64,000 nt of DNA from assembly GCF_022369455.1 (NCBI RefSeq), contig NZ_CP059599.1:958409-1022408 (forward strand), given 5' to 3'. Both the position numbers and the translations under genes were made by a program. How positions within the stretch are numbered: the first letter of the stretch is position 1; each line of letters starts with the position of its first letter. Shown piece by piece: positions 5,573-61,708 of the stretch. This DNA comes from Campylobacter sp. RM5004. GTDB lineage: Bacteria; Campylobacterota; Campylobacteria; Campylobacterales; Campylobacteraceae. The notes under the pieces were generated by a model. The model was not told where the DNA came from. It did not search any database and saw nothing but the letters and a program-made list of their open reading frames with translations.

Positions 5573-5607
5573 TTGCCTTAAAATAGATTAAAAATATTTT
5601 AAGGCAA
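5573..5607 (+). promoter_or_regulatory. 13 bp perfect hairpin running into the ribosome binding site
   Basis: TTGCCTTAAAATA (5573-5585) pairs perfectly with TATTTTAAGGCAA (5595-5607) around a 9 nt loop. The 3' arm runs into the AAGGA Shine-Dalgarno (5606-5610) of the gene starting at 5611. No T-run follows, so it is not a standard terminator; it may occlude translation or protect an upstream transcript end. Confidence 0.6.
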
Positions 5608-11313: not shown

Positions 11314-11320
11314 AAATTAA

Positions 11321-11370
11321 GGAATTTGAAATAGGAATTAGTTTGAAAACTAAATTCCGAATTCAAATTC
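11321..11370. repeat. Dispersed repeat pair (reverse then forward unit) forming a long hairpin
   Basis: GGAATTTGAAATAGGAATT (11321-11339) is followed by an inverted, diverged unit at 11351-11370 (core AATTCCGAATTCAAATTC). The two arms plus AGTTT/AAACT next to the loop can form a stem of more than 20 bp with a few mismatches. It starts 7 bp after the cytochrome stop codon and may act as its terminator. Confidence 0.75.
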
Positions 11371-11404
11371 TTTTTGATTTTTTATAAAAAATACACAAAA
11401 TAAA

Positions 11405-11424
11405 AAGAATTTAAAATAGGAAAT
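11405..11424 (-). repeat. Degenerate dispersed repeat unit
   Basis: AAGAATTTAAAATAGGAAAT, a reverse-orientation unit with two substitutions, just upstream of the MFS gene promoter. With the copy at 12615 it brackets the MFS gene. Confidence 0.55.
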
Positions 11425-11443
11425 ATAAATTACAAAGAGCTAT

Positions 11444-11449
11444 TATAAT
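11444..11449 (+). promoter_or_regulatory. -10 box placed so the MFS mRNA may be leaderless
   Basis: TATAAT ends 6 bp before the ATG at 11456, so transcription would begin at or next to the A of the start codon. No Shine-Dalgarno sequence is present upstream of that ATG. Confidence 0.4.
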
Positions 11450-11455
11450 TAAGCT

Positions 11456-12616: not shown

Positions 12617-12633
12617 TTCCTAATTCAAATTCT
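12615..12633 (+). repeat. Dispersed repeat unit overlapping the MFS stop codon
   Basis: AATTCCTAATTCAAATTCT; its first two bases are the last two of the TAA stop of the MFS gene (12614-12616). Confidence 0.8.
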
Positions 12634-18489: not shown

Positions 18490-19070
18490 ATTATTACGCA
18501 TTTGAAGGAATTGATACTTTAGGTAAAAGCACTCAAATTGAGCTATTAAAATCTTTGCCAAATTCCTATTTTAAATTCCAGCCAATTTTTGTAAAAGAGC
18601 CAGGCGAAACTAAGCTAGGAATAAAATTAAGAGAATTGATATTAAACGAAAAAATGAGCAAAAGAGCTAGAATGTTTTTATTTTTAGCAGATAGAGCTGA
18701 GTTATTTTCTACGATTGATTTTAAAAAAGAATTTATAATAGCTGATAGAAGTTTAATATCGCATTTAGCTTATGAAGTTGATAGTGATTATAAACAATTG
18801 CTAGATTTTAATCTATTTGCAACTAATAATATTTTGCCAAATCATATAATATTTTTTAAAGGCGATAAAGATTTATTAAAAGATAGATTAGCAAATAAAT
18901 CTCTTGATATGATAGAGCAAAAAGGCATAGAATACTTTTTAAAAGTTCAAGAAAATTATGAAAAAATAATAAAAGCTTTAAATATTAATGTTTTAAATAT
19001 AGATGCAAGATTAAGTATAGAAGAAATAAATAAGATTATTAAGGAGTATATAAATGATACATGCAATTAA
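18486..19070 (+). CDS. tmk: Thymidylate kinase
   Basis: Phosphorylates dTMP to dTDP. 194 aa with P-loop EGIDTLGKSTQ at residues 6-16, the KEPGETKLG region that corresponds to the dTMP-binding DRX/EPG part, FLFLADRAELF and the IADRSLISHLAYE motif. Residues 24-31 (PNSYFKFQ) are encoded by a near copy of the dispersed 19 bp repeat (18561-18579). Compared with the C. jejuni sequence as I remember it, about five extra residues are present between LLK and IF..EPG at this place, so the repeat may be an in-frame insertion. Overlaps coaD by 4 bp and hisS by 17 bp. Confidence 0.92.
   Translation: MNYYAFEGIDTLGKSTQIELLKSLPNSYFKFQPIFVKEPGETKLGIKLRELILNEKMSKRARMFLFLADRAELFSTIDFKKEFIIADRSLISHLAYEVDSDYKQLLDFNLFATNNILPNHIIFFKGDKDLLKDRLANKSLDMIEQKGIEYFLKVQENYEKIIKALNINVLNIDARLSIEEINKIIKEYINDTCN
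18561..18579 (+). repeat. Near copy of the dispersed repeat inside tmk
   Basis: AATTCCTATTTTAAATTCC differs from the 19 bp consensus at two positions and is read in frame as part of NSYFKFQ. Confidence 0.5.
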
Positions 19071-23293: not shown

Positions 23294-23961
23294 GTAAAAT
23301 TGCTATAAGTATTTTAAGTGGTGGGCTTGATAGTTGTGTAAGCACAGCTTGTGCTATTCGTGATGGTTATAAGGTTATTGCAATTCACTTTAATTATCAT
23401 CAAAGAACAGAACAAAGAGAACTAAAAGCATTTAATGATATTTGTGATTTTTATAAAATACAAAAAATGGCAATTGATATGGATTTTTTTAAACAAATCG
23501 GCGGCTCAAGCCTAACAGATATTAGTTTAGAAGTTCCAAAAGGCACTTTAGGAGAAAACGGAAAAGTGCCTAATACTTATGTGCCGTTTAGAAATGGTAT
23601 TTTTTATAGTATTGCAGCAGCAATTGCACAAAGATTTAATGCAAGTGCTATATATACAGGCTTAGTTAGCGAAGATTCTAGCAATTATCCTGACACTACT
23701 TTAGATTTTGTAGAAAAAACTGCAGCATTTATTAAAGAAGGAAGTGGAGAAAATATAAAAATCATTACTCCACTAATTAAACTTAAAAAATCTGAAATCG
23801 TAAAACTTGGAATGAGTTTAAAAGCACCTTTAGAGCTTAGCTATAGTTGTTATGATAGCAATGAATTAGCTTGTGGTAAATGCGAATCTTGTCAATTAAG
23901 ATTAAAAGGTTTTAGCGAAGCAGGATTTAAAGATTTAATAAAATACGAAAATAATTCCTAA
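23290..23961 (+). CDS. queC: 7-cyano-7-deazaguanine synthase
   Basis: Makes preQ0 from CDG, ATP and ammonia on the way to queuosine in tRNA. 223 aa with the PP-loop SGGLDS at 10-15, NTYVPFRNGIFYSIAAAIAQ, the SEDSSNYPDTT region and a zinc site made of C187, C195, C198 and C201 (SCYDSNELACGKCESC). GTG start inside the aspB stop overlap. The last residues NNS and the stop codon are encoded by a dispersed repeat unit, so the 3' end has been shaped by the repeat. It is the last gene of the long plus-strand run starting at 12692. Confidence 0.95.
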   Translation: MSKIAISILSGGLDSCVSTACAIRDGYKVIAIHFNYHQRTEQRELKAFNDICDFYKIQKMAIDMDFFKQIGGSSLTDISLEVPKGTLGENGKVPNTYVPFRNGIFYSIAAAIAQRFNASAIYTGLVSEDSSNYPDTTLDFVEKTAAFIKEGSGENIKIITPLIKLKKSEIVKLGMSLKAPLELSYSCYDSNELACGKCESCQLRLKGFSEAGFKDLIKYENNS

Positions 23962-23971
23962 TTCAAATTCT
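23953..23971 (+). repeat. Dispersed repeat unit containing the queC stop codon
   Basis: AATTCCTAATTCAAATTCT; the TAA at 23959-23961 within the unit is the queC stop. Confidence 0.8.
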
Positions 23972-23982
23972 TTAAATTATAT

Positions 23983-24000
23983 ATAGCTTGTTTAAGCTAT
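23983..24000 (+). terminator. Small hairpin downstream of queC
   Basis: ATAGCTT (23983-23989) pairs with AAGCTAT (23994-24000) over a 4 nt loop, followed by TTAGGTTTATT. The stem is short and AT-rich, so terminator activity is only possible. Confidence 0.35.
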
Positions 24001-24060
24001 TTAGGTTTATTATATTTGTTTGCTATTGTAATTTTGTATAGTTTTAGATAATAAACCTAA
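24001..24060. repeat. 13 bp perfect inverted repeat in the queC/hinT convergent gap
   Basis: TTAGGTTTATTAT (24001-24013) is exactly complementary to ATAATAAACCTAA (24048-24060), enclosing 34 bp. The right arm runs into the next dispersed-repeat hairpin, giving a compound structure between two convergent genes. Confidence 0.65.
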
Positions 24061-24097
24061 TTCAAATTCTTTTTTTGAATTAGGAATTGGAATTAGG
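24056..24097. repeat. Dispersed repeat hairpin with a partial third unit, 3' of hinT
   Basis: CCTAATTCAAA (24056-24066) pairs perfectly with TTTGAATTAGG (24074-24084) over a T-rich 7 nt loop; an extra partial unit GGAATTAGGAAATT follows to about 24097, 4 bp from the hinT stop codon. The T run in the loop and AT-rich flanks fit a terminator for either convergent gene. Confidence 0.7.
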
Positions 24098-24100
24098 AAA

Positions 24101-24463
24101 TTAAAATAAAGCTTCTTTATTTTCTTCTACTTTAGGTATGAATAATTTAAGCCCACCTAACATATGAAAATGTAAATGAAATACTTCTTGTCCTGCATCA
24201 GCTCCAACATTTGTAAGTAGTTTGTAACCACTCTTATCAAGGCCTAGTAATTTTGCAACTTCATGAATAAAATCAGTCATTTTAGCCATAGTAGCACCAT
24301 CAACTTCTTGAAAACTTGTAAATCTTTTTTTAGGAATAATCAAAATATGAACAGGAGCTTTTGGGTCAATATCGTGAAAAGCTAAAAATTCATCATTTTC
24401 TAATACTTTACTTGAAGGAAGCTCTCCGATAACAATTCTTTCAAAAACATTTAAATCACTCAT
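24101..24463 (-). CDS. HIT family protein (HinT-like nucleotide phosphoramidase)
   Basis: 120 aa histidine-triad hydrolase acting on nucleoside phosphoramidates or AMP-lysine type substrates. Catalytic motif HLHFHMLGG at about 96-104 (H96, H98, H100) with the DIDPKAPVHILIIPKKRF strand upstream, both typical of HinT. Divergent from pheS, convergent with queC. Its 3' end adjoins a dispersed repeat cluster. Confidence 0.92.
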   Translation of the reverse strand: MSDLNVFERIVIGELPSSKVLENDEFLAFHDIDPKAPVHILIIPKKRFTSFQEVDGATMAKMTDFIHEVAKLLGLDKSGYKLLTNVGADAGQEVFHLHFHMLGGLKLFIPKVEENKEALF

Positions 24464-35143: not shown

Positions 35144-36202
35144 ATGAAACACCCGCTTGATTGTGAAGATAATTTTTCTAATTCATTATTGTTTTGGATT
35201 GCAAGGTATTTAAAACATAAATTAAATTCCTTATCTAATAAACTTTTAGAAAAAGCTGAAGAATTAAGAGAAATTAATATTGCATTAAATACCTTACATA
35301 ATATTGAAGAATTAGATGAGCTAGCTAAAAAAGCAAGGAATATTGGAATGATAGGAATAAATACATACTTTAACCCTATTAAAAAGTTTTATGAGCAAAT
35401 CATTCATTATAAGCCCTACTCTTTAAAACAAATTGATGAAGAACTAGTAATTGAAATTTTATCAACTATTACTGCAGGTTTAAGTGATGCAAGTAAAAAA
35501 AATTACAAAATAGCTATTGTTAATTTCTTTAAATACCTAAGCTCACAAAACAAAGACGAAGAAGGAAGCCATTATTATGAAATTGAGCTTAAAAACTGGT
35601 CTGGACTAAACTCAAGCTCGGGAACTAAACTTCCTGAATACATGAGTGAAGAACAAATGAAATTATTCTTAAGCACTTTAAATGATTTTCAATACAAAAG
35701 CAATAGCGATAGAAACAAACTTGCAATTAAAATAATATTATTTACAGGTGTTCGTGTGAATGAGGTTTTAAGGCTTAGACTAAAAGATATTAGCTATGAA
35801 AATGATTTGATTAGCCTTAGGATTCATGCTAAAGGTAATAAATATAGAGTTGTTTTGCTTAATGTAAATTCAATAAAAGAGCATTTAGAATATTTCAAGC
35901 AAATTGCTAGTCCTGATGATTATTTATTCACAAACAAGCAAGGCAAACCGCTAACTCAAGCATATATTTCAAGACTAATTGAAAATGTTTTAATGCAAGC
36001 AGGCATTAGAAAAGAAAAAAATGGAGCTCATATGCTAAGGCATAGCTTTGCTACCCTACTTTATAAAAAAGAAAAAGATTTGCTATTAGTTCAAGAAGCT
36101 TTGGGACACGCATCGTTAAATACTTCTAGGATTTATACACACTTTGATAATGATAAACTCAAATTAGCTGCAAAAATAGCAAATAATTTAAAAAACGACT
36201 AA
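35144..36202 (+). CDS. xerH: Tyrosine recombinase XerH
   Basis: Resolves chromosome dimers at dif, acting alone rather than as XerC/XerD. 352 aa, longer than XerC/D because of an extended N-terminal domain (MKHPLDCEDNFSNSLLFWIA). Catalytic residues are in place: R204 (TGVRVNEVLR), K230 (IHAKGNKYRV), H296 and R299 (HMLRH), H322 (LGHASLNTS) and the nucleophile Y331 (RIYTHF). Strongly resembles C. jejuni XerH (Cj0863c) as remembered. AAAGGA precedes the ATG. The dif candidate is upstream and a dispersed repeat begins 4 bp after the stop. Confidence 0.94.
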   Translation: MKHPLDCEDNFSNSLLFWIARYLKHKLNSLSNKLLEKAEELREINIALNTLHNIEELDELAKKARNIGMIGINTYFNPIKKFYEQIIHYKPYSLKQIDEELVIEILSTITAGLSDASKKNYKIAIVNFFKYLSSQNKDEEGSHYYEIELKNWSGLNSSSGTKLPEYMSEEQMKLFLSTLNDFQYKSNSDRNKLAIKIILFTGVRVNEVLRLRLKDISYENDLISLRIHAKGNKYRVVLLNVNSIKEHLEYFKQIASPDDYLFTNKQGKPLTQAYISRLIENVLMQAGIRKEKNGAHMLRHSFATLLYKKEKDLLLVQEALGHASLNTSRIYTHFDNDKLKLAAKIANNLKND

Positions 36203-36206
36203 AGCA

Positions 36207-36257
36207 AATTCCTGTTTCAAATTCTCATAATTTTTAAAGGAATTTAAAAACGGAATT
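36207..36257. repeat. Dispersed repeat pair 3' of xerH
   Basis: AATTCCTGTTTCAAATTCT (36207-36225) and an inverted, diverged unit GAATTTAAAAACGGAATT (36240-36257) with a short spacer. Three mismatches make the stem weaker than at other loci. Starts 4 bp after the xerH stop. Confidence 0.7.
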
Positions 36258-36262
36258 TGGAT

Positions 36263-36343
36263 TTATTTTATCTTAAAAGGTTTTTGTATAGCCTTATTTG
36301 CTTTAAAAGCTTTAATTTCATTAGGCTTTAATGTTATAAATTA
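36263..36343 (-). pseudogene. Possible C-terminal gene remnant
   Basis: On the minus strand an open stretch ending in TAA (36263-36265) reads FITLKPNEIKAFKANKAIQK followed by PFKIK. The phrase looks like the natural tail of a protein, but an upstream stop cuts it and no start is present. It lies between two dispersed repeats. It may be the scar of a deleted gene or chance; I cannot name a family. Confidence 0.25.
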
Positions 36344-36348
36344 TTTAA

Positions 36349-36367
36349 AATTCCTATTTCAAATTCT
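36349..36367 (+). repeat. Dispersed repeat unit
   Basis: AATTCCTATTTCAAATTCT, exact consensus, 40 bp beyond the 3' end of the minus-strand gene at 36408. Confidence 0.8.
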
Positions 36368-36407
36368 TTTTAAAATCTGCTTTGGATTAGCTATATAACT
36401 TTCCTTA

Positions 36408-36989
36408 TTAAACTTTTCTTCTATAAGCTGTGATTGCGATTTTTGTAAAATCACCCTTTATATTATCATCATCTATTAGATTTGTAATGACTGCTTTATA
36501 AGTTTTATTCTCAGGTATAAAGTAAAATCCAAGATATCTTACCGCCATAAAAACTTTTTCATTTTTTATACTCATAGTTCTACGACTGCCTACATTTGTA
36601 TTTGCATTTGGCGTAGCGATTTTATCAAATACTAATATCTCATCACCATCTTTAGTAAGCTCATAAATTTTAATATCAAGTGCAAGTGGATAATAAGGAT
36701 TATCTCGTATATTGCTTTCTGTTTTTTGATCGTATAAATCAACTGAATAAAAATCCTTACCTACTTCACCATATTCAAAACGCAAAGGATAAAAAGCATA
36801 AAACCCTAAATGCTCTCCTATATCTTTTCTTTGTGGCTTAAAGATTATTTCAAATTTAGTGCCTTTTTTACTTAAATCAAATAAAGTATATATAGGAGTT
36901 TTTGGTGTTTTATCTTTATGAAATATATCAAATAATCCAGCAATTAATAACGAAACTAGAATAAGCAATAAGCAAGTCTTTTTAAACAT
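36408..36989 (-). CDS. Hypothetical exported or lipid-anchored-like protein
   Basis: 193 aa with an N-terminal hydrophobic segment (MFKKTCLLLILVSLLIAGLF) that could be a signal or anchor; the Cys at position 6 is not in a proper lipobox. The rest is a beta-rich extracytoplasmic domain with FEIIFKPQRKDIGEHLGFYA and RRTMSIKNEKVFMAVRYLGF. No recognised family. ATG at 36989 has AAGGAG upstream. It is bracketed by dispersed repeats at 36349 and 37013, and lies in the lineage-specific stretch next to xerH. Confidence 0.65.
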   Translation of the reverse strand: MFKKTCLLLILVSLLIAGLFDIFHKDKTPKTPIYTLFDLSKKGTKFEIIFKPQRKDIGEHLGFYAFYPLRFEYGEVGKDFYSVDLYDQKTESNIRDNPYYPLALDIKIYELTKDGDEILVFDKIATPNANTNVGSRRTMSIKNEKVFMAVRYLGFYFIPENKTYKAVITNLIDDDNIKGDFTKIAITAYRRKV

Positions 36990-37012
36990 TTAAACTCCTT
37001 TATATAAGCTCA

Positions 37013-37063
37013 AATTCCTATTTCAAATTCTCATGATTTTTCAAGGAATTTGAATTAGGAATT
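37013..37063. repeat. Dispersed repeat pair forming an 18 bp hairpin
   Basis: Forward unit AATTCCTATTTCAAATTCT (37013-37031) and reverse unit GAATTTGAATTAGGAATT (37046-37063) pair over 18 bp with one mismatch. It lies between two minus-strand genes, 25 bp past the stop of the upstream one. Confidence 0.8.
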
Positions 37064-37087
37064 AGAAGTTTTATACCCTACTTTCTT

Positions 37088-38071
37088 TTATTTATTATGT
37101 TTTTTATTTTCATTAATTTCATCAATCTCTGCTCTTATTCTTTTTCTTAATTCTTTTTCATTAGGACAAGAATTTTCTAAAACTTCTAATATTTCTAAAC
37201 TTGTTCCAGTAAAAGAACTAGAATAATTTTTTGTAGTTTTTACATAATCAATAATTTTTTGAAAATTATCGTATATTTCAAATATATCTTTTTTATAACA
37301 TATATCTTGTGGGATTATTGCTGGTTCAATCATTTTTCCGTCTTCATCACCTTGTAAATTTAAGTATATATCTTTAGCATGAAGCATAATCACTGTATTT
37401 ATATATAAAGCATAAAAAAATTCCTTTGACTTTTGCGAATCAAAGTATCTTTTATAAGCCATATCTAAATATTTATATACTTCATCATGTTTATTTGATT
37501 CTTCTTTTAAATAATATACAAATCTATCAGTGTCTAAATCTGTATATATTGAAACAAGCTTTAACATAGTTGCAAAGCGATTTTGATTTAGCTCAATATT
37601 ATCAAAATAATTTTTCCCATATGGTAAGCGTTCAATCATTGAATAAATCTCATTAAAAAATTCATCTTTATAAGTATTTGCAACATACTTAGCATACGAT
37701 AAATCATCACTTTTAAAAAACATATTTCTATTTAAAATCATCCACCATAAAATATCTTCTATGCTATCTTTTGGTAAAAGCTCTTTACCTTCTTTAAATT
37801 TATCATTCATTTGATTTATAAGAAATACCATTATAAAATTATCATAATTCAAATATGTATGCAATAATTCAATAACAATTCTATATTCCATCGCATTTAC
37901 AAATTTAGCAGAAGCTTCTGGGTTTTTACTATATTGTATGTCAAAAGTTTCTTTTTGAGTTTCGCTAACCATTGCATAAAAACTTCCTATAATAAGAAAA
38001 ATTATAGTAAAGATAAAAGCTATTACTTTTTTTAAAATGATTTTTAAATATTTTTTGTAATTTACTTGCAT
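37088..38071 (-). CDS. Hypothetical membrane-anchored protein
   Basis: 327 aa: Lys-rich cytoplasmic tip, one transmembrane helix at about residues 13-35 (VIAFIFTIIFLIIGSFYAMVS), then about 290 residues predicted mostly helical and outside the membrane, ending in a charged tail. Cysteines occur in IPQDICYKKD and ENSCPNEKE. No recognised family. It sits between dispersed repeat hairpins (37013 and 38143), and its upstream region is a 70 bp exact duplicate of the region upstream of the gene at 53431. Confidence 0.65.
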   Translation of the reverse strand: MQVNYKKYLKIILKKVIAFIFTIIFLIIGSFYAMVSETQKETFDIQYSKNPEASAKFVNAMEYRIVIELLHTYLNYDNFIMVFLINQMNDKFKEGKELLPKDSIEDILWWMILNRNMFFKSDDLSYAKYVANTYKDEFFNEIYSMIERLPYGKNYFDNIELNQNRFATMLKLVSIYTDLDTDRFVYYLKEESNKHDEVYKYLDMAYKRYFDSQKSKEFFYALYINTVIMLHAKDIYLNLQGDEDGKMIEPAIIPQDICYKKDIFEIYDNFQKIIDYVKTTKNYSSSFTGTSLEILEVLENSCPNEKELRKRIRAEIDEINENKKHNK

Positions 38072-38114
38072 ATTTAGCCTTAATAAATAAATAGTTTAAA
38101 TTATAATAATATAT

Positions 38115-38184
38115 AAAAATAATTATTAAAATTATTTAATCAAATTCCTATTTCAAATTCTAAGGATTTTGCAAGGAATTTGAA
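38115..38184. repeat. 70 bp exact duplicate of 54071-54140
   Basis: Bases 38115-38184 are identical to 54071-54140 and include an AT-rich promoter-like part plus most of a dispersed repeat pair. Both copies lie just upstream of a minus-strand gene for a single-span membrane protein. Confidence 0.85.
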
Positions 38185-38193
38185 ATAGGAATT
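38143..38193. repeat. Dispersed repeat pair forming a perfect 18 bp hairpin, 3' of mnmC
   Basis: AATTCCTATTTCAAATTC (38143-38160) pairs perfectly with GAATTTGAAATAGGAATT (38176-38193) around a 15 nt loop. Ends 5 bp from the mnmC stop codon. This is the cleanest full-length element in the window. Confidence 0.85.
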
Positions 38194-38198
38194 AGGAC

Positions 38199-39992
38199 TT
38201 ATTTTACTAAGCCCTTTTTTAAATCTCTTATTAAAAATCTAGCAGGATGAAGTGCGTGTTCGTATCTTTTAAACATTCCGCTAGGTGTATTATTAAAATA
38301 ACTAGTAATTAATCTAGCCGATGTTAAGGCACTTGCAAGTCCCCTTGAGCCATGAGCTGTGCTAACAAACACCCTACTTCTTGGAGCGTTAGTCTGAGGT
38401 TTGTGTTTATCAAACTGAAGAGCTTTATAAGTGCTTTTGTATTTATTCTCATTAAAATAAGCTCCTACGATAGGAAATCTATCCGATGAATAACTTCTAT
38501 AACCTACCCTATTTCCTATAATTAAATGAGAATAATCAGCTTTAAAAATCTCTTTAAAATTATTAATATTAACTTCATCATAAACACTACTAGCATCTGC
38601 GATAAGATTTCTATCATAAGTAGCACCTAATAACACAATGCCATCTTTAGCGCCTGTAATATAGGCTTTTGAGCTTATTGGGTGTTTGTATTTTACTTGA
38701 TTTTTTAGCCAAGTTGCTTGACCCCTTACTACTGATAAAGGAAGATTATTAAATATTTCTTTAGAATAAGCTCCTGTTGCAAAAATCACTGCATCAAAAG
38801 TCATTGTTTTGTTTTCAAAATCTAATTCTACTCTATCATAAAATTCTCTAAAGCCATTAAGCTTGTAGTTTAAAAATATCCTAGCATTTGATAAGGCAAA
38901 TATTTTAGGAACTAATTTACAAGGCTCTAGCGTTCCGCCGTCTTTTAAAAAAGCAAAATCAAAATGTAATTTAATTAAAGGATTATCCTTTTGCATTTTA
39001 AATCTATCTTGCAGTTCTTTTGTGTAAGCATGTTCTAAAACCCCTTCTAATTTGTAGCCTAATTTTTTGTATAGTTTTGAACTATGCCAGAACGAAAACT
39101 GGCTAAATTCTCCTAATAAACTTGAAGGATTTTGTATAAGAGCTGTTAATAAGCCGATTTTATTACCGCTGCCTTCGTTTGCTAAAGTATGGCTTTGCTC
39201 AAATACGCTTATAGTTTTACCTAATTTTGATAATTCATAAGCCAAAGTTGCACCAGCTATTCCACCACCTATTATTGCGATATTATTTACTTCTAGGTAA
39301 TTTTTATGAAAATAACCATCAAGCTCTTCTTTTTGAACTTTATTTTTTAATATTGCTAAAGTGCTTTCTCTTTTAATGCCTATTTCTATATTATTTATTT
39401 CAAAACCTAGTTCAATTAGAGCTTTTTTAAAATTAGAATTTGAACTATAACTTATTAATTTACCATTTGGTTTTAAAAGTTTTTTTACTTTTTCTAAAGT
39501 ATTGATTGAAAACATTTCTTGATTTTTACTAGGAGAAAATCCATCAGCATATACAACATCAGCTAAAAAATCCAAATCATCTAAAGCCACATCAACATCT
39601 TGAAAAACCAAATCAAGAGTAATTCCATCAAATTCAATTCTATAAATACCATTTTTACAAGGCGGATAGTCGTTTATGAAGCTTTTGTTTAGTTCTATAT
39701 TAAATTTTTTGCAAAAAAACTTAATATCTTCAATGCTTTGATAATGATTTTCTATTGCTACATAATTTAGTTTTATTCCTTGTTCTATTGCTTTTTTTGC
39801 ACTTAAAAAAAAGTTAAGCCCAAGACCAAAACCTAATTCTAATATAGTTAATTTATTATTTGCATTTAAAAAAGCATTCTCAACATAAATGCCATTTCTT
39901 TCTTTTAAAGGCTCTTTAATATTGTAATAAAAATCATCAAAATCTAAAGAAAAAATTTCATCGTTTTTTAGTACCCAATTAGCCTTTCTCAT
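38199..39992 (-). CDS. mnmC: Bifunctional tRNA mnm5s2U biosynthesis protein MnmC
   Basis: Completes the mnm5(s2)U34 modification in tRNA. 597 aa fusion: N-terminal SAM-dependent methyltransferase (MnmD part; ILELGFGLGLNFFLS at about 50-64, VVYADGFSPSKNQEMFSINTL) and C-terminal FAD oxidase (Rossmann motif IAIIGGGIAGATLAYELSK at about 237-255, VSTAHGSRGLASALTSARLI near the end). Shorter than the E. coli protein (about 670 aa) but with all domains. AGGAG precedes the ATG. Downstream end abuts a dispersed repeat hairpin; upstream is amiA. Confidence 0.93.
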   Translation of the reverse strand: MRKANWVLKNDEIFSLDFDDFYYNIKEPLKERNGIYVENAFLNANNKLTILELGFGLGLNFFLSAKKAIEQGIKLNYVAIENHYQSIEDIKFFCKKFNIELNKSFINDYPPCKNGIYRIEFDGITLDLVFQDVDVALDDLDFLADVVYADGFSPSKNQEMFSINTLEKVKKLLKPNGKLISYSSNSNFKKALIELGFEINNIEIGIKRESTLAILKNKVQKEELDGYFHKNYLEVNNIAIIGGGIAGATLAYELSKLGKTISVFEQSHTLANEGSGNKIGLLTALIQNPSSLLGEFSQFSFWHSSKLYKKLGYKLEGVLEHAYTKELQDRFKMQKDNPLIKLHFDFAFLKDGGTLEPCKLVPKIFALSNARIFLNYKLNGFREFYDRVELDFENKTMTFDAVIFATGAYSKEIFNNLPLSVVRGQATWLKNQVKYKHPISSKAYITGAKDGIVLLGATYDRNLIADASSVYDEVNINNFKEIFKADYSHLIIGNRVGYRSYSSDRFPIVGAYFNENKYKSTYKALQFDKHKPQTNAPRSRVFVSTAHGSRGLASALTSARLITSYFNNTPSGMFKRYEHALHPARFLIRDLKKGLVK

Positions 39993-51074: not shown

Positions 51075-51755
51075 TTGATAGGTTTAATCGGTGGGATGAG
51101 TTATGCTAGTACTATAACTTATTATAAATTAATAAATGAGTTTAGCCAAACTCATCATAATTCTTTATCTCGTGCAAAGATTTTAATATCAAGCGTAGAT
51201 TTTGATGAGATTGAAAAATATCAACATAATAATGAGTGGCAAAAAGCTGCAAGTTTATTAAACGAAGAAGCAAAAAGATTAGAAAAAGCTGGTGCAAATA
51301 TAATCGCACTTTGCACAAATACTATGCATAAAGTTGCAAATGAATTGCAAAAAGATTTAAAGGCAAAATTCATCCATATAGCCCATTCAAGCCTTGATGA
51401 GCTAAACCTTAATAATATAAAAGATGTTTTATTGCTAGGCACTAAATACACTATGCAAGAAGACTTTTATAAAAATGAGCTAAAGGGCTTGAATGTTATC
51501 ACTCCAAATAATGATGATATGAATACGATAAATGATATTATTTTTAATGAACTTTGCAAAGATTTGATAATGCAAAGTAGCAAAGAAAAGTTTATAAATA
51601 TCGTAAATAAACATAAAGTTCAAGGAGTTTTACTAGCCTGCACTGAGATTTCACTACTAATTAACGAAAGTGATTTTGATAATTTAAGGGTATTTGATAC
51701 AACTTACATTCATGCTAAAGATATTTTTAATCAAAGCTTAAAGAATTTGAATTAG
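51075..51755 (+). CDS. Aspartate/glutamate racemase family protein
   Basis: 226 aa cofactor-independent racemase-type protein with IGLIGGMSYASTITYYKLINE at the start, the first catalytic cysteine in IALCTNTMHKVA and the second in VLLACTEISLLI, the paired Cys layout of the YgeA/aspartate racemase family. Substrate is not certain. TTG start behind AAGGGG, 1 bp after tpiA, so it may be co-transcribed with the glycolytic genes. The last codons (AAG AAT TTG AAT TAG) lie in a dispersed repeat unit that supplies the stop, and a hairpin follows. Confidence 0.85.
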   Translation: MIGLIGGMSYASTITYYKLINEFSQTHHNSLSRAKILISSVDFDEIEKYQHNNEWQKAASLLNEEAKRLEKAGANIIALCTNTMHKVANELQKDLKAKFIHIAHSSLDELNLNNIKDVLLLGTKYTMQEDFYKNELKGLNVITPNNDDMNTINDIIFNELCKDLIMQSSKEKFINIVNKHKVQGVLLACTEISLLINESDFDNLRVFDTTYIHAKDIFNQSLKNLN

Positions 51756-51760
51756 GAATT
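51742..51760 (-). repeat. Dispersed repeat unit containing the racemase stop codon
   Basis: AGAATTTGAATTAGGAATT, reverse orientation; TAG at 51753-51755 is the stop of the racemase gene. Confidence 0.8.
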
Positions 51761-52727: not shown

Positions 52728-52746
52728 AGAATTTGAAATAGGAATT
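52728..52746 (-). repeat. Dispersed repeat unit, 3' of the gene at 52756
   Basis: AGAATTTGAAATAGGAATT, exact reverse complement of the consensus, 9 bp past the stop of the minus-strand gene. Confidence 0.8.
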
Positions 52747-52755
52747 AACTATCTT

Positions 52756-53385
52756 TTATAATCTAAATCTACCTTTAGAACTTATTGCTTTATATCTATT
52801 TTCAATATAACCACAACTATCTATAAAAAACTCTTCACTAATTTCTTTAAAATCATTATTTTCATCAAAGTAATAATACTTCACAAACAATCTTTCAGAT
52901 TCAAAAACAAATGAAGTTTCATCATAAAAATATTTATCATTTTTTATTACTAGCTCATTATTAAAATTATTTATTTTTGAAGTTTTTAATAAGTCTTTGT
53001 TAAATTCTTTTATTTCTTTTATTTCATCTATGTTTTTATAATTTTGAACTTTTTCTAATTTTTCTACATTTGCATGACGATTAAAATAATCTTTTATAGC
53101 GAGTTTTTGTCGTTCTAGGTATTCAATTCTACACTTATAGCCGAATTTATTATAATCTATTTTATAAGTTTTATCGGTATTAAAATCATAATAGCTTAAA
53201 TTATTCTCACTTAGGTCTGCTTCAATTCTATATAATTTTGATTTAAGCTCATTAAATTCTTTTAATGGGTCGGTGTTATTACTTATAAAATAAGTTAATG
53301 CAAAATAACACAAAGCAAGTATTAAACATAATAAACCTATAACAAATATCAGTGTTTTTATTAATTTAACTATTCTAAAAAACAT
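52756..53385 (-). CDS. Single-span membrane protein, paralogue A of a tandem pair
   Basis: 209 aa: one N-terminal transmembrane helix (about 10-33), then an extracytoplasmic domain of about 170 residues. It clearly resembles the adjacent gene at 53431; shared blocks are YYDFNTDKTYKIDYNKFGYKC, YKNIDEIKEIKEFNKDLLKTS, LFVKYYYFDENND and the tail IDSCGYIENR (two conserved Cys). No named family recognised. The conserved Cys pair suggests a disulfide in the periplasm. It is C-terminally about 10 residues longer than its paralogue. Confidence 0.7.
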   Translation of the reverse strand: MFFRIVKLIKTLIFVIGLLCLILALCYFALTYFISNNTDPLKEFNELKSKLYRIEADLSENNLSYYDFNTDKTYKIDYNKFGYKCRIEYLERQKLAIKDYFNRHANVEKLEKVQNYKNIDEIKEIKEFNKDLLKTSKINNFNNELVIKNDKYFYDETSFVFESERLFVKYYYFDENNDFKEISEEFFIDSCGYIENRYKAISSKGRFRL

Positions 53386-53430
53386 TTAAAATCCTAATAA
53401 TTATTAATTACTTTCAAATTATCTCTTTTA

Positions 53431-54033
53431 TTACATACGCTCAATATAACCACAATCATCTATTAAAAACTCATAATTTTCTTCAAGTAAATTATTATTA
53501 AAATCAAAGTAATAATATTTTACAAATAATTTTCCATCTTTAAAAATAAAAGAATTTTTATCATAAAAATGCTCAAAGCCATCAATTGTTAGCTCATAAT
53601 TAAATTCATATATTTGTGAAGTTTTTAATAAATCTTTGCTAAATTTTTTTATTTCTTTTATTTCATCTATACTTTTATAATTATTGATTTTTTCTAAATG
53701 CGTTTGTAGGTATCTCACAAAAAAATTTTGAATAGCGTATTTTTGTTTTTGCAACTCATCAATAATGCAACCATATCCAAGTTCATTGTAATTTACCTTA
53801 TATGTTCTGCTGTCACCAAAATCATAATATGGTTTATATCCTTGCTTTAATAAAATTTCTTCAACTTTTTTTAATTCCTTTGTTACTTTAACAAAATCAC
53901 TATGATCGTAAGGTTGAAAAAAATTATATATCGCCATAGAAACAATACCAATCATTAAAATTATTAATGCAAAAAGAAGTACAAACAAATAATATAATGA
54001 TTTTCTTATAAACTCTATCAGCTTAGAATACAT
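53431..54033 (-). CDS. Single-span membrane protein, paralogue B of a tandem pair
   Basis: 200 aa, same layout as its downstream neighbour at 52756: TM helix at about 12-36, then blocks YYDFGDSRTYKVNYNELGYGC, YKSIDEIKEIKKFSKDLLKTS, LFVKYYYFDFNNN and IDDCGYIERM. The C-terminal halves are the most alike. Function unknown. Its upstream region is a 70 bp exact duplicate of that in front of the gene at 37088, so the two may share expression signals. Confidence 0.7.
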   Translation of the reverse strand: MYSKLIEFIRKSLYYLFVLLFALIILMIGIVSMAIYNFFQPYDHSDFVKVTKELKKVEEILLKQGYKPYYDFGDSRTYKVNYNELGYGCIIDELQKQKYAIQNFFVRYLQTHLEKINNYKSIDEIKEIKKFSKDLLKTSQIYEFNYELTIDGFEHFYDKNSFIFKDGKLFVKYYYFDFNNNLLEENYEFLIDDCGYIERM

Positions 54034-54070
54034 TTATCGCTCCGTTTATTTAAATTGCAATAATATATCT

Positions 54071-54140
54071 AAAAATAATTATTAAAATTATTTAATCAAA
54101 TTCCTATTTCAAATTCTAAGGATTTTGCAAGGAATTTGAA
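54071..54140. repeat. 70 bp exact duplicate of 38115-38184
   Basis: Second copy of the duplicated segment: AT-rich promoter-like sequence plus most of a dispersed repeat pair. Divergence starts at the base after 54140, inside the last repeat unit. Confidence 0.85.
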
Positions 54141-54149
54141 TTAGGAATT
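54099..54149. repeat. Dispersed repeat pair overlapping the stop codon of the gene at 54141
   Basis: AATTCCTATTTCAAATTC (54099-54116) and GAATTTGAATTAGGAATT (54132-54149) pair with one mismatch around a 15 nt loop. The reverse unit encodes the last residues (ANS) and the stop of the minus-strand gene. Confidence 0.8.
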
Positions 54150-54881
54150 TGCTTTGTAAAAAATCTCTTCAATTCTTTTATTTTTATAAACTAAAGTTAT
54201 GAAAATTGTCTTGCCAAACACTACATTTTTATAACAAATATTAGCGTTTTTATAACATCTTGGCATTTTAAATTCTTTAAAATATTCATAAACTTCATAA
54301 GGGCTTTTATCCTTTATATTTTCATTAAGAGTTTTAATTAAGTTAATATCATCTACCAATAAATAATCATCAAAATTAATCTTTTTAGCTTTTATAATCT
54401 GCATTACAAGTTCATTTGGCTGTTTTAAAAAATAATCATAATATTTATAAGCACAAAATACCAATAATAAAGCCAAAGCAAATGCTTGATTTTTAACTAC
54501 ATTCTTACTAAAAAGCTTATAAATTATGAAAAACAAAACCGCATAAATAAGATCTAAAATAAAATCATTTTTTACATAAAGATTAAACAAAGCATTAGCT
54601 AAAGCAATAAACATTACATAAAATGATAAATACTTTAAAACACTATAAAATCTATCTGTTAAATATATTTCAAAGTTTTTTAATCTTTTAGAAATTATAT
54701 AATAAAGCATAAAACATAGGCTTGAAATTATAAAATAAATTATGAAATCTAATTGATTATTAAAGCTTAGTGGATTTATATAAACTAAATAAAACAAAGC
54801 TAAAGCTACAAAAAAGCAAAACCAAGCTAGATAAAAAAGCATATTTTTAATTAAGAAAATAAAATCATTTTTAAAAGCCAT
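54141..54881 (-). CDS. Polytopic membrane protein, paralogue A of a second tandem pair
   Basis: 246 aa. Five hydrophobic helices (about 10-33, 40-60, 82-100, 106-124, 131-148), then a soluble domain of about 95 residues containing KQPNELVMQIIKAKKINFDDYLLVDDI and CYKNVVFGKTIFITLVYKNKRIEEI. It is related to the next gene at 54899; the first 80 bp of both genes differ at only four positions. No known family. Its stop codon and last residues come from a dispersed repeat. Confidence 0.7.
   Translation of the reverse strand: MAFKNDFIFLIKNMLFYLAWFCFFVALALFYLVYINPLSFNNQLDFIIYFIISSLCFMLYYIISKRLKNFEIYLTDRFYSVLKYLSFYVMFIALANALFNLYVKNDFILDLIYAVLFFIIYKLFSKNVVKNQAFALALLLVFCAYKYYDYFLKQPNELVMQIIKAKKINFDDYLLVDDINLIKTLNENIKDKSPYEVYEYFKEFKMPRCYKNANICYKNVVFGKTIFITLVYKNKRIEEIFYKANS
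54802..54881 (-). repeat. 80 bp near-identical 5' coding segment shared with 55581-55660
   Basis: The first 80 bp of the two paralogous genes match at 76 of 80 positions, while the rest of the genes is far more diverged. This suggests recent gene conversion or selection on the 5' end. Confidence 0.8.
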
Positions 54882-55691: not shown

Positions 55692-55710
55692 AATTCCTAT
55701 TTCAAATTCT
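55692..55710 (+). repeat. Dispersed repeat unit abutting the uvrB stop codon
   Basis: AATTCCTATTTCAAATTCT, exact consensus, ending 1 bp from the uvrB stop codon (55712-55714). Confidence 0.8.
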
Positions 55711-57760: not shown

Positions 57761-57991
57761 ATGAGCGATAACATAACAAACACATTAAGCCAAAAAATAG
57801 TTGAATTAATGGAAAAATATAAATACCTTGTTAGTGAAAATGAAAGACTTATGAATGAACTAACACAAGCAAAAGCAAAATGTGAAGCACAGGCTTATGA
57901 AATAAGCAAATTAGAAGAAGAATTATTGAATAAGAATCTAATAGAAGAAGAAACATTAAGATCAATCGAGCAACTACTTGGAAACAACTAA
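57761..57991 (+). CDS. Small coiled-coil protein
   Basis: 76 aa, almost entirely a predicted coiled coil (NTLSQKIVELMEKYKYLVSENERLMNELTQAKAKCEAQ). No membrane segment. Length and heptads recall ZapB-type or other cell-division coiled-coil proteins, but no specific family can be assigned. The gene lies in the place of C. jejuni Cj0681, between uvrB and the pseudopilin cluster. Overlaps the next gene by 14 bp. Confidence 0.7.
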   Translation: MSDNITNTLSQKIVELMEKYKYLVSENERLMNELTQAKAKCEAQAYEISKLEEELLNKNLIEEETLRSIEQLLGNN

Positions 57992-58292
57992 GTTTACGAT
58001 AACCCTAGGAGCTAGGGGTTATAATTTCAATGTTCCGACTAAGGATTTTTTAGCTTATTTAAATGATGATATTAAGAAAATTAATCCTAGTAATGGCAAT
58101 ATTGAAATTCCACAATTTATTAATTTATACCTTAAAAAGTGTTACTCACACTTTCAATTAATGCAAGAATTTGAGAAATTAGAAGAAGAAAATATAAAGC
58201 TTAAAGCAGGTTTAAAAAAGCAACAAGAAGAACTATTAAATATACTTAATATTCTTAACAATAAGGGAAAAGCAGATGAAGAAAGCCTTTAG
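57978..58292 (+). CDS. Small protein with C-terminal coiled coil
   Basis: 104 aa from TTG 57978, overlapping the upstream coiled-coil gene by 14 bp. N-terminal part TITLGARGYNFNVPTKDFLAYLNDDIKKI looks like a short beta-alpha unit, loosely reminiscent of ZapA; residues 62-100 form a coiled coil. With the preceding gene it makes a coupled pair of helical partners. Function unknown. It also overlaps the first pseudopilin gene by 17 bp. Confidence 0.65.
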   Translation: METTKFTITLGARGYNFNVPTKDFLAYLNDDIKKINPSNGNIEIPQFINLYLKKCYSHFQLMQEFEKLEEENIKLKAGLKKQQEELLNILNILNNKGKADEESL

Positions 58293-58776
58293 TATGATAG
58301 AAATGATTTTTGCAATTGCAGTTATAGGAATATTATCAGCGATTGCAATACCTAAAATGATGGCAAACAAACAAACCGCTCAAATAGTTAAACTAAAAGA
58401 ACAAGTTGAAGCAATTAGAAAAGGAATAGAAGCTTACGCTGGTAATCAATATCTTGAAACAGGCAAAAAAACTTACCCGAATACACTTTGTGATAAGGCG
58501 AATTTAGACTGGGCTGGAAAATGCAATTTTGCAAGTGGTAATTTATTTGGCAATGTAGCAAGTGCTGTTAAAAGTGGGAAAGGCGAAAGCTGGAATGGTT
58601 GGTCTAAAAATACTGGGGAAGTTTTTATATACTATCCAAATCCTAAAAAAACAAATATTGGCTATATATTTCAATACTATAAAGGTGAATTTAATTGCTT
58701 AAAAAGTTATAGTCATTTTGGTGGTAAAGTTTTACCTTGCAGTGATTTAAACGAAGAAGCTAAAAGCGAGTATTAA
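58276..58776 (+). CDS. Type II/IV pseudopilin-like protein 1
   Basis: 166 aa with a type III (prepilin) signal: MKKA then FSMIEMIFAIAVIGILSAIAIP; cleavage after A4 would leave Phe at +1 and the conserved Glu at +5. The alanine at -1 in place of glycine is usual in Campylobacter. The C-terminal domain has four cysteines (TLCDKANLDWAGKC, FNCLKSY, VLPCSD), probably disulfide-bonded. First of three pilin-like genes in a row ahead of priA, candidates for the DNA-uptake pseudopilus. Confidence 0.8.
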   Translation: MKKAFSMIEMIFAIAVIGILSAIAIPKMMANKQTAQIVKLKEQVEAIRKGIEAYAGNQYLETGKKTYPNTLCDKANLDWAGKCNFASGNLFGNVASAVKSGKGESWNGWSKNTGEVFIYYPNPKKTNIGYIFQYYKGEFNCLKSYSHFGGKVLPCSDLNEEAKSEY

Positions 58777-58789
58777 AAAGGAATAAAGC

Positions 58790-59248
58790 ATGAAAAAAGC
58801 TATGAGTATGATAGAAATTATTTTCGTAATCGTAATTATAGGAACTTTAGCAGGAGTTGCAATACCGAAATTATTCGCTGGTCGTGATGATGCTTATGCT
58901 TTAAAACTAAAAGAACAACACGCTTTAATTATCACTAATTTAGAGCAATATTCTCAAAGTATGCTTTATGAAACAGGTTCAAAAAAATTCCCTAAAAATA
59001 TATATTTTGGAAATAAGACTGGGGTAGTTACGGATAGTGAAAATTTGGTGTTTAATAAATTAGCAGAATGCAATTCTTCTAAATCAAATGCGCCTTGTTG
59101 GACTTCAGTAAATAATGGCACTGGAGAAAACACTATAACATTTCATTTTAATAATAAAAAGAGCATAAGTTTTGCATATTCACAAACTAATAAAAGTTTA
59201 ATTTGTAATAATATTAGTGAGTGTAATAAATTAAAAATAGGAAAATAA
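58790..59248 (+). CDS. Type II/IV pseudopilin-like protein 2
   Basis: 152 aa with prepilin signal MKKA / MSMIEIIFVIVIIGTLAGVAIP (Glu at +5 after cleavage) and a helical spine up to about residue 50. The globular head carries three or four cysteines (AECNSSKSNAPCW, ICNNISECNK). AAAAGGAA precedes the ATG. Clearly the same family as its two neighbours in the signal and spine but different in the head, as expected for major and minor pseudopilins. Confidence 0.8.
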   Translation: MKKAMSMIEIIFVIVIIGTLAGVAIPKLFAGRDDAYALKLKEQHALIITNLEQYSQSMLYETGSKKFPKNIYFGNKTGVVTDSENLVFNKLAECNSSKSNAPCWTSVNNGTGENTITFHFNNKKSISFAYSQTNKSLICNNISECNKLKIGK

Positions 59249-59249
59249 A

Positions 59250-59858
59250 GTGAAAAAAGCTTTTACTATGATTGAATTAATATTTGCCATTGTAATAATA
59301 GGAGTATTATCAGCAGTTGCTTTACCTAAATTCTTTGATTTAAGATTTAAAACTGAATTAACAAGCCTAAAAACAGGAATTGATACAATTAATTCTAAAG
59401 CTAATAATCAATTGCTTAAAAATATAATCATAGGTCAAAACGAAAGCTATAACGATTTTGAAAAAAAAGCAGCAGATGCTAGTAAAATTTTTACAAATTT
59501 ATTTAAAGATGGTTTAGATAGAGGAGATGAGGATAAGGGTTGGTTTTTTCTTGGTTTAAAAGAAAAAACTAGCACCACAATTATACCTTGGTATATATTA
59601 GATGGAAGTACACCTAGTGCTACTTATGACCCTGAATTAGATTACGGAAACTATCTAACAAGCGTTAGTGATAGAGCTCAAGATGGAATTTATTTAATCT
59701 ATAAGTATTCTGTTAATAGCAATATTTATTTCAATTTAATTTACAAAAGCTTAACTGGTAAATTCGAATGCGCAAAAGCAACTTGCAATGGTTGTAACAA
59801 AAGTAGAATTGATTCAATTAATAATCTAATACCTTGCTTTGAACCCGCAACAATATAA
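59250..59858 (+). CDS. Type II/IV pseudopilin-like protein 3
   Basis: 202 aa, the largest of the three, with prepilin signal MKKA / FTMIELIFAIVIIGVLSAVALP (Glu at +5). GTG start 1 bp after the previous stop. The head includes GWFFLGLKEKTST and a C-terminal cysteine-rich part FECAKATCNGCNKSR...IPCFEP. The stop codon overlaps the priA start by one base, so pilin and helicase genes are co-translated, as in the C. jejuni uvrB-priA region. Confidence 0.8.
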   Translation: MKKAFTMIELIFAIVIIGVLSAVALPKFFDLRFKTELTSLKTGIDTINSKANNQLLKNIIIGQNESYNDFEKKAADASKIFTNLFKDGLDRGDEDKGWFFLGLKEKTSTTIIPWYILDGSTPSATYDPELDYGNYLTSVSDRAQDGIYLIYKYSVNSNIYFNLIYKSLTGKFECAKATCNGCNKSRIDSINNLIPCFEPATI

Positions 59859-61708
59859 TGTATTTTTATAAAGTAGCTATCCTAGGTCATAATTTAGAAG
59901 AATTAACCTACGAAAGCTCTTTAGAAATAAAATTATTCACTAAAGTTGAAGTTGAACTTAGTAAAAAAATAGTTCAAGCAGTTATAATTTCTAAATGTGA
60001 AAAACCTGAATTTAAAACAAAAGAAATTATTAAAATATACGATGATAGCCTAAGCCCTACTCAAATTGAATTAGCTAATTTTATGAGTAGATACTATGCT
60101 GCTAATATTTCATTATGTCTTGATAGCTTTGTTTTTAGTAAAAATTTAGAAAAAAATACAACTAAAATTTGTAGCGAAATTAACATAGAGCTAAACGAAA
60201 AACAAGAACAATGCTTAAAGAGTATTCAAGAAAATAAAATGAATTTAATTTTTGGAGATACAGGCAGTGGAAAAACCGAAATATACGCAAAATTAATAGA
60301 TGAATGTATAAAAAGTGGCAAACAAGCTTTGTTTTTAATGCCTGAGATTAGCCTAACTCCGCAAATGCAAAAAAGAATGAAAGTATATTTTAAAGATTCA
60401 TTCATAACTTGGCATAGCAAGATAACTAAGGCAAAAAAACAAAAAGATTTAATAGAATTTGAATTAGGAAATAAGCCTTTAGTAATCGGAGCAAGATCAG
60501 CACTTTTTTTACCATTTACTAATCTAGGCTTAATTATTGTAGATGAAGAACACGATAATTCATATAAATCTTCAAAATATCCTTGTTATAACGCTAGAGA
60601 TTTAGCCATTTATCTTGCTAGTATTTCAAATGCTAAAATAGTCTTAGGTTCTGCAACACCAAGTCTTCAAAGTTTTTTTAATACTAATATTAATAAGTTT
60701 AGACTGAAAGGAACTTATTTTAAAAGCGAAAAAGAAATTCTTTTTGATAGCGATAATGAAATAATAAGTCCATATTTACTAGATTTATTAGAAGAAAATT
60801 TAGAGAAAAAAGAACAAAGTATGATTTTCTTACCAGTTCGTGGAAATTATAGGCAAGTAGTTTGCAAAGAATGCAATACAAGAAAAATTTGCCCTAATTG
60901 TTCTGTTCCTATGAGCTTACACAATAAAACTTATAAGTGCCATTATTGTGGTAAAAAAGAATATTTAAAAAACACTTGCGAAAATTGTGGTAGCACGATG
61001 CTTGAGAGTAAAATAATAGGTACAGCACAATTATGCGAAAATCTTAAAATCGCCCTACCTAGTGCAAGAATAGCTAAATTAGATAGCGATGAGCTAAGCT
61101 CAAACACAAAATTAAAAGAAATCTTAGAAGAATTTGAATTAGGAAATATAGATATTTTAGTAGGAACTCAACTCATCTCAAAAGGACATGATTATAAAAA
61201 TGTTACATTTTGTGCGATTTTAGGTCTTGATGAGTATTTATTCTATCCTGATTTTAAAGCTCGTGAAAATACACTTGCACTTGCTATTCAAGTAGCAGGT
61301 CGTGCAGGAAGAAGCAAAAAAGCAAAAGTTTTAATCAATACTCAAAATAAAGATTTTTTTGAAAAATATCTAACAAATTATGATGAGTTCTTAGAAGATG
61401 AGAAATTATATAGAAATAATTATCCACCATTTAAAAGATTATTAAGGCTAATAATATCATCAACAAATGAAATGGAAGCTTCTAATTTGTGTGATGAACT
61501 AGCAAACCATCTAAAAAATAGTAAAGAAAATTACGATGATTACGAAATTATTGGCTATGGAAAATGTGCCATTGAAAAGATTGATAAAAAATACAGATAT
61601 TATGTATTGATTAGATCAAGTAAGAAAATTTTGTTAAGTAAATTAGCAAGCCATTATAAAAAGTTACAAAAAGTAACAATAGATATTGACCCTATTCATT
61701 TTTCGTAA
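59858..61708 (+). CDS. priA: Primosomal replication restart helicase PriA
   Basis: 3'-5' helicase that restarts stalled replication forks. 616 aa, shorter at the N-terminus than the E. coli protein (732 aa). Walker A FGDTGSGKTEIY near 130-141, DEEH box, LGSATPS, zinc-binding region CKECNTRKICPNC...CHYCGKK...CENCGS (four CxxC-type pairs), VGTQLISKGHDYKNV and QVAGRAGR. The 19-mer AGAATTTGAATTAGGAAAT occurs twice (60454-60472 and 61129-61147), each in frame as FELGN, and differs from the dispersed repeat by one base. Confidence 0.95.
   Translation: MYFYKVAILGHNLEELTYESSLEIKLFTKVEVELSKKIVQAVIISKCEKPEFKTKEIIKIYDDSLSPTQIELANFMSRYYAANISLCLDSFVFSKNLEKNTTKICSEINIELNEKQEQCLKSIQENKMNLIFGDTGSGKTEIYAKLIDECIKSGKQALFLMPEISLTPQMQKRMKVYFKDSFITWHSKITKAKKQKDLIEFELGNKPLVIGARSALFLPFTNLGLIIVDEEHDNSYKSSKYPCYNARDLAIYLASISNAKIVLGSATPSLQSFFNTNINKFRLKGTYFKSEKEILFDSDNEIISPYLLDLLEENLEKKEQSMIFLPVRGNYRQVVCKECNTRKICPNCSVPMSLHNKTYKCHYCGKKEYLKNTCENCGSTMLESKIIGTAQLCENLKIALPSARIAKLDSDELSSNTKLKEILEEFELGNIDILVGTQLISKGHDYKNVTFCAILGLDEYLFYPDFKARENTLALAIQVAGRAGRSKKAKVLINTQNKDFFEKYLTNYDEFLEDEKLYRNNYPPFKRLLRLIISSTNEMEASNLCDELANHLKNSKENYDDYEIIGYGKCAIEKIDKKYRYYVLIRSSKKILLSKLASHYKKLQKVTIDIDPIHFS
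60454..60472 (-). repeat. Near copy of the dispersed repeat inside priA (first)
   Basis: AGAATTTGAATTAGGAAAT, one mismatch to the reverse unit; encodes EFELGN. Same 19-mer as at 61129. Confidence 0.45.
61129..61147 (-). repeat. Near copy of the dispersed repeat inside priA (second)
   Basis: AGAATTTGAATTAGGAAAT, identical to the copy at 60454; encodes EFELGN ahead of IDILVGTQ. Confidence 0.45.

Follow-up and report, generated by a model that had tools for sequence, protein, structure and literature searches.

An 18-20 bp motif strongly expanded in Campylobacter sp. RM5004 is probably a DNA uptake sequence (DUS/USS-like) of a Campylobacter-related genus, with gene-end hairpins that coincide with cassette borders. 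Two bacterial families, Neisseriaceae and Pasteurellaceae, are known to take up DNA sequence-specifically by means of such genomic signals, and USS represents a genome-wide self-recognition motif that occurs in both orientations, inside genes and paired at gene ends. The window analyzed here, a stretch of 64,000 nucleotides (958409-1022408 on a 1.91 Mb chromosome assembled as one contig, G000), contains repeat units that are copies of the motif WAATTCCTAWTTYAAATTCY. An uptake sequence fits because the motif has built up by substitution in housekeeping genes, forms inverted pairs at gene ends, shows no orientation bias and is found in a single genus. A more specific version, to which we give slightly less than an even chance, holds that this is a Campylobacterota uptake system independent of those in Neisseriaceae and Pasteurellaceae, with a 20-bp RAATTY-containing self-signal that expanded in one species and gene-end hairpins that act as cassette-trading borders. 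The expanded motif resides mainly at gene 3' ends, either solitary or in hairpin-forming inverted pairs likely acting as terminators, and under the proposed mechanism competent cells would preferentially import DNA that bears it. Imported DNA would replace or add chromosomal segments, thereby spreading and homogenizing the motif, and lineage-specific cassettes ending at gene-end hairpins would be traded between congeneric species and re-inserted at other gene ends. If correct, this would tie an uptake signal to gene-end hairpins and traded cassettes in a way that is open to testing, and would bear on what limits or permits gene exchange among Campylobacter relatives; the origin and spread of the signal could be traced directly, as sister species would be at different stages of motif gain.

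The motif is over-represented throughout the genome and restricted to a small genus. Its conserved stretch spans 18-20 bp with sharp edges. The ~1.9 Mb genome contains 529 copies with at most one mismatch, a frequency of ~1 per 3.6 kb, compared to 0 for a reversed control motif, and 12-mers of the motif are ~100- to 220-fold above the expectation of a Markov model for this genome. Over-representation of this kind is a property of DUS and USS. The window carries 17 copies at up to one mismatch and 23 at up to two (0 and 0.3 in shuffled sequence) and thus has the average motif density of the genome. Copies are balanced in orientation on both replichores, and a replication-oriented motif (chi- or KOPS-like) was rejected on these grounds. 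Among congeners, each represented by one genome per species, the motif is sparse or degenerate in G003 (51 copies) and G001 (29 copies) and absent in G002 (one match). Of 60 genomes examined, those outside this same small genus contain at most one match each, which is the chance level. No convincing motif match was found in plasmids. Two viral contigs (L092 and L093) contain a single exact copy each of a 19-bp form of the motif, probably by chance or because they derive from a phage whose host is related. In intergenic regions of this genome, two further short tandem repeats, CCACTCCAACCACTCC and ACCCAAGTAACCC, are over-represented as well, for example at L032:6290-6330.

Motif copies are concentrated at gene ends and frequently form hairpins. 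Placement was assessed in 464 kb, consisting of the window and twenty 20-kb stretches, some of which were picked for having motif matches, with gene calls taken as simple ORF picks. Of 28 convergent gaps (of at least 30 bp) in this sample, 26 contain the motif, as do 63 of 113 co-directional gaps but only 5 of 34 divergent ones. A preliminary description of the window had noted that the units enclose lineage-specific genes; given these proportions, they are not special to such modules. About 85% of copies are intergenic and most lie directly 3' of stop codons in either orientation, with gene ends preferred and promoter gaps mostly free of the motif. Two forms can be distinguished, a solitary motif of 18-20 bp and a 51-bp inverted pair with a 15-bp spacer (P51). 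The 464 kb contain ~25 inverted pairs with a spacer of exactly 15 bp, and P51 hairpins fold with z-scores of -5.7 to -7.0 relative to shuffled sequences, i.e. ~6-7 standard deviations better. Gene-end inverted pairs forming hairpins are likewise known from DUS and USS. Judged by sequence, P51 hairpins likely act as terminators; no known RNA family was found in the window. A further 72 intergenic copies are strictly solitary. A terminator-only reading was rejected on account of the many solitary copies and of those located mid-gene.

The window lies at the replication terminus, with the GC skew turning at ~36 kb. All repeat units listed in the preliminary description could be located, each within 1-2 bases of the position given there (11407, 12615, 36207/36240, 36349, 37013/37046, 38143/38176, 51743, 52729, 54099/54132 and 55692, with the two units of a P51 separated by a slash). 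The units and associated genes are as follows.

11322-11424, unstranded: three motif copies between gene 10768-11313 and the MFS gene; the gap is intact in G003, which is motif-free there.
12615-12632, plus strand: motif with 1 mismatch, at an inversion breakpoint relative to G003 (homology breaks off at 12605 and is found again from 12634).
23953-24101, unstranded: motif copies at a synteny breakpoint relative to G003 (homology breaks off at 23945 and is found again from 24098).
35144-36202, plus strand: xerH-like tyrosine recombinase at the terminus, with 57-62% identity to many Campylobacter homologues.
36207-36257, unstranded: P51 with a degenerate second arm, 4 bp after the xerH stop codon.
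36349-36366, plus strand: solitary 18-bp motif, exact.
36408-36989, minus strand: cassette gene B, 193 aa, with an N-terminal hydrophobic segment; recently transferred.
37013-37063, unstranded: P51 downstream of gene C; RNA hairpin of -21.3 kcal/mol, z -6.3.
37088-38071, minus strand: cassette gene C, 327 aa.
38143-38193, unstranded: P51 with perfect arms, downstream of gene 38199-39992.
51743-51760, minus strand: motif overlapping the stop codon of 51075-51755; G003 synteny ends at 51728.
52729-52746, minus strand: solitary motif between modules.
52756-54033, minus strand: module of two tandem paralogues (52756-53385 and 53431-54033), with a relative at G003:875571-876857.
54099-54149, unstranded: P51 with the stop codon of 54141-54881 inside its second arm.
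54141-54881, minus strand: module gene.
55692-55709, plus strand: solitary motif downstream of uvrB.

Several module genes have been transferred recently between species. Median identity at four-fold sites of core genes, used as the baseline, is 0.57 to G001, 0.52 to G002 and 0.62 to G003. Module genes reach 0.88-1.00 to relatives, far above these core medians, which identifies them as recent inter-species transfers. Gene B shows a four-fold identity of 0.93 to G002 and 0.90 to both G001 and G003. Gene C is at 0.92 to G003, where positions 37100-38135 match G003:1191914-1192953 with 94% DNA identity. The corresponding values to G003 are 0.97 for 52756-53385, 0.93 for 53431-54033 and 0.88 for 54141-54881. 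Relatives of the module genes sit at other loci in the genomes of related species. The MFS gene (11456-12616), listed among the modules in the preliminary description, does not belong to this set, with a four-fold identity to G003 of only 0.42 and an intact gap at 11313-11455. No Pfam or NCBIfam family was found for the cassette genes, and the AlphaFold model of gene B is poor (mean pLDDT 50).

Cassette borders coincide with hairpins in the best case. Cassette A (L039:5745-6770) aligns to G001, G002 and G003 from position 5585 onwards, and homology stops at 6833/6834 or 6888, except in the single G003 copy, where it stops at 6816. Hairpins are located at L039:5587-5637 and 6836-6886, so that the homology edges fall within 2 bp of them in the best case. 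In other modules, for example gene B, homology stops on one side at the end of the gene itself and not at the motif. The G003 copy of 54141-54881 lies between two blocks that in this genome are 346 bp apart (L039:17440-17786). The gap between them holds five motif copies, and the site is empty here and filled in G003. This site fits the pattern of the minimal mobile elements (MMEs) of Neisseria, cassettes of whole genes that pass between related bacteria where transformation occurs (PMC3898611). The cassettes described here are likewise whole genes exchanged between related species; MMEs, however, are found between fixed conserved genes, whereas here the loci differ and homology can stop at a hairpin. 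With one genome per species, the cassettes otherwise differ between species at non-equivalent loci. In G001, members of the lineage-specific cassette families A and B follow one another in alternation, separated by hairpins (L079, C1:167500-175000), and in G002 tandem copies of family A are separated by hairpins (L080, C1:856500-863500). Within the window, a 101-bp block at 38095-38193, comprising the upstream part of gene C and a P51, recurs at 54049-54149 with 95% identity.

Synteny breakpoints fall on motif-containing gaps. In a comparison of 114 kb of G000 with its nearest species G003, 18 gaps with the motif are broken and 2 intact, while 0 motif-free gaps are broken and 19 intact, an almost complete coincidence of breakpoints and motif gaps. 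When co-directional gaps alone are considered, 11 gaps with the motif are not intact and 2 are, compared to 1 and 12 without it. This contrast is partly confounded because the motif-free co-directional gaps are mostly shorter and probably inside operons. Compared to G003, the segment 12634-36203 is inverted, one endpoint lying at the motif at 12615 and the other at the motif after xerH; given that one end lies beside xerH at the terminus, the segment has changed replichore. Breakpoints without a nearby motif are also found in G003, and G002, which is motif-free and carries the same cassettes, is at least as reshuffled relative to the window genome. The motif thus marks sites of breakage here, while a causal role would be more than the comparison supports. 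The proposal that the repeats may explain the reshuffled synteny is supported insofar as breaks fall on motif gaps, but not by the motif-free breakpoints in G003 or the reshuffling of G002. Similarly, several modules are exchangeable as had been suggested, in that they were transferred recently, to different loci and with edges that can lie within 2 bp of a hairpin; that the borders cause the exchange does not follow from their location, because nearly all operon ends carry the motif, and breaks at such positions are tolerated in any case.

The units could alternatively, in line with the preliminary description, be borders used directly by recombination, with cassettes made up of a gene and its 3' hairpin joining, leaving or moving by homologous or site-specific recombination between hairpins in an integron-like manner. 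The distribution of broken and intact gaps between G000 and G003, the match of cassette A edges to hairpins and the tandem cassette arrays in G001 with hairpins between them all agree with this mechanism, as does the block at 54049-54149, which is possibly the leftover of a lost neighbour cassette. We nonetheless consider it unlikely. The breakpoint association is confounded by operon ends, G003 has motif-free breakpoints, and G002 holds the same cassettes with a decayed P51-related hairpin only. In addition, the mechanism leaves unexplained the copies inside genes that arose by substitution. Arrays of genes with a 3' palindrome do resemble integron cassettes, and one array adjoins xerH. However, no attC-type core was seen on reading the P51 sequences, the nearby recombinase matches Campylobacter XerH, a conserved terminus recombinase whose named relatives are nearly all from Campylobacter, and the motif is found genome-wide and inside genes.

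Copies inside genes arose by substitution. In 366 ORFs of at least 150 aa with trimmed ends, 13 copies are present at up to one mismatch and 27 at up to two. Shuffling codon order yields expectations of 0.00 and 0.38, respectively, and synonymous shuffling with the protein sequence held fixed yields 0.83 and 5.3. Host genes include priA (twice), tmk, pnp, gmk and an ftsK-like gene, with mid-gene copies in either orientation. Three of these copies are located in the window.

18561-18578, plus strand: motif in tmk, 1 mismatch; ungapped relative to G003, alignment ambiguous relative to G001, G002 and one solved homologue.
60455-60472, minus strand: motif with 2 mismatches within priA; the G003 sequence is identical, G001 and G002 have no copy, and the alignment to a distant PriA is ungapped.
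61130-61147, minus strand: second motif with 2 mismatches within priA; the G003 sequence is identical, G001 and G002 have no copy, and the alignment to a distant PriA is ungapped.

The observation that the conserved operons contain no units in their intergenic gaps is mostly trivial, as these gaps are very short; inside genes, as in tmk and priA, the operons do carry copies. All six testable in-gene copies with up to one mismatch align to G003 without a gap in the G003 sequence, and several in-gene copies are shared with G003 but differ from the motif by 5-8 mismatches in G001. The sites in Gmk and Pnp and both sites in PriA are locally ungapped relative to distant solved homologues. Because of these ungapped alignments, we conclude that the in-gene copies came about by substitution and not by insertion. 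Coding enrichment by copies that are not inserted elements is shared with DUS and USS. The bases flanking the in-gene copies are Y in 26 of 27 and W in 27 of 27 cases, compared to fractions of 0.75 and 0.92 in the synonymous-shuffle control, given which they lend weak support. A similar origin by substitution is indicated for the P51 arms, as P51 relatives with a conserved loop are present in all four species while both arms are a near-perfect motif only in this genome.

The mid-gene copies also bear on whether the motif could be a structural DNA signal, such as a terminator hairpin or the site of an abundant DNA-binding protein, that is kept by selection and has no role in uptake or exchange. 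Its position directly after stop codons and the strong hairpins formed by pairs would be expected of such a signal. The strictly solitary intergenic copies are, however, unable to form a hairpin, copies in housekeeping genes are located mid-gene in either orientation, and the motif is absent from the other genera tested, making this explanation quite improbable. Amplification in this lineage of a MITE/REP-like miniature transposable or palindromic repeat is very improbable: although the lineage-specific burst, the inverted-pair structure and a few extended repeat units in long convergent gaps, with the motif at their borders, are reminiscent of such elements, the in-gene copies, for which a transposable repeat was rejected, are ungapped in relatives instead of facing the empty sites left by insertions (intergenic sites are mostly rearranged), P51-related hairpins that differ by arm substitutions are already present in sister species, and most copies are without repeated flanks, many being single 18-mers. 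A transposable repeat hence does not explain the motif. Up to a third of intergenic copies belong to longer repeats, most of which are paralogous genes or tandem units, and duplication therefore adds to the copy count.

The proposed uptake sequence resembles known systems in distribution but not in sequence. Neisserial DUS occur singly or as inverted repeats in terminators (PMC3898611), occupy permissive places in the core genome linked with recombination (PMC2397512) and form dialects that differ between related species (PMC3630211). The motif shares with them the presence of hundreds to thousands of copies, alone or inverted in gene-end terminators (putative ones here), in-gene copies with reading-frame limits, related species that differ in copy number or dialect, and a rearranged chromosome (PMC3898611, PMC2397512, PMC3630211). 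In contrast to DUS, it is AT-rich and unrelated in sequence, measures 18-20 bp instead of 12, has fewer copies and a strong intergenic bias, and belongs to a different phylum; its recognition by a pilin is putative. As in the USS of Pasteurellaceae, for which an uptake preference has been described (PMC7811141), copies are found genome-wide in both orientations, in genes and in gene-end pairs, but the sequence is unrelated. Closer in phylogeny, Campylobacter jejuni, a member of the same bacterial family, is naturally competent and is reported to take up only DNA methylated at RAATTY (CtsM; PMC10046745). The motif contains AAATTC, an RAATTY site, and MethyltransfD12 genes were found in all four species. 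RAATTY is, however, a short common site and not an over-represented 20-mer, and the shared AATT may be due to chance in AT-rich DNA. No uptake sequence described for Campylobacter or its relatives was found in the open literature, which is not proof of absence.

Several properties count against an uptake sequence. The motif is longer than DUS (12 bp) and the 9-bp core of USS, as well as rarer, and instead of the core of 9-12 bp that is typical of DUS and USS, though not required by the mechanism, its entire 18-20 bp are conserved. The intergenic bias is also stronger than we would expect of an uptake sequence. In view of its length, and because we infer preferential uptake, we term the motif uptake-sequence-like and not a proven member of this class.

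Of the putative competence machinery, the analysis covered ComEC, which is present in all four species, and three pseudopilins (58276-59858, plus strand) beside priA. As the motif is sparse or absent in G001-G003 even though all four species have ComEC, recognition would be confined to one lineage. In C. jejuni, the priA-adjacent position occupied here by the pseudopilins holds the competence gene cj0683 (PMC10046745). The pseudopilins are candidate uptake pilins, their fast divergence being what might be expected of a changing receptor. The pseudopilin operon and a small ORF, together at 57978-59858 upstream of priA, diverge much faster between species than their neighbours, with pseudopilins at 42-50% amino acid identity to G003 compared to 94% for UvrB and 83% for PriA.
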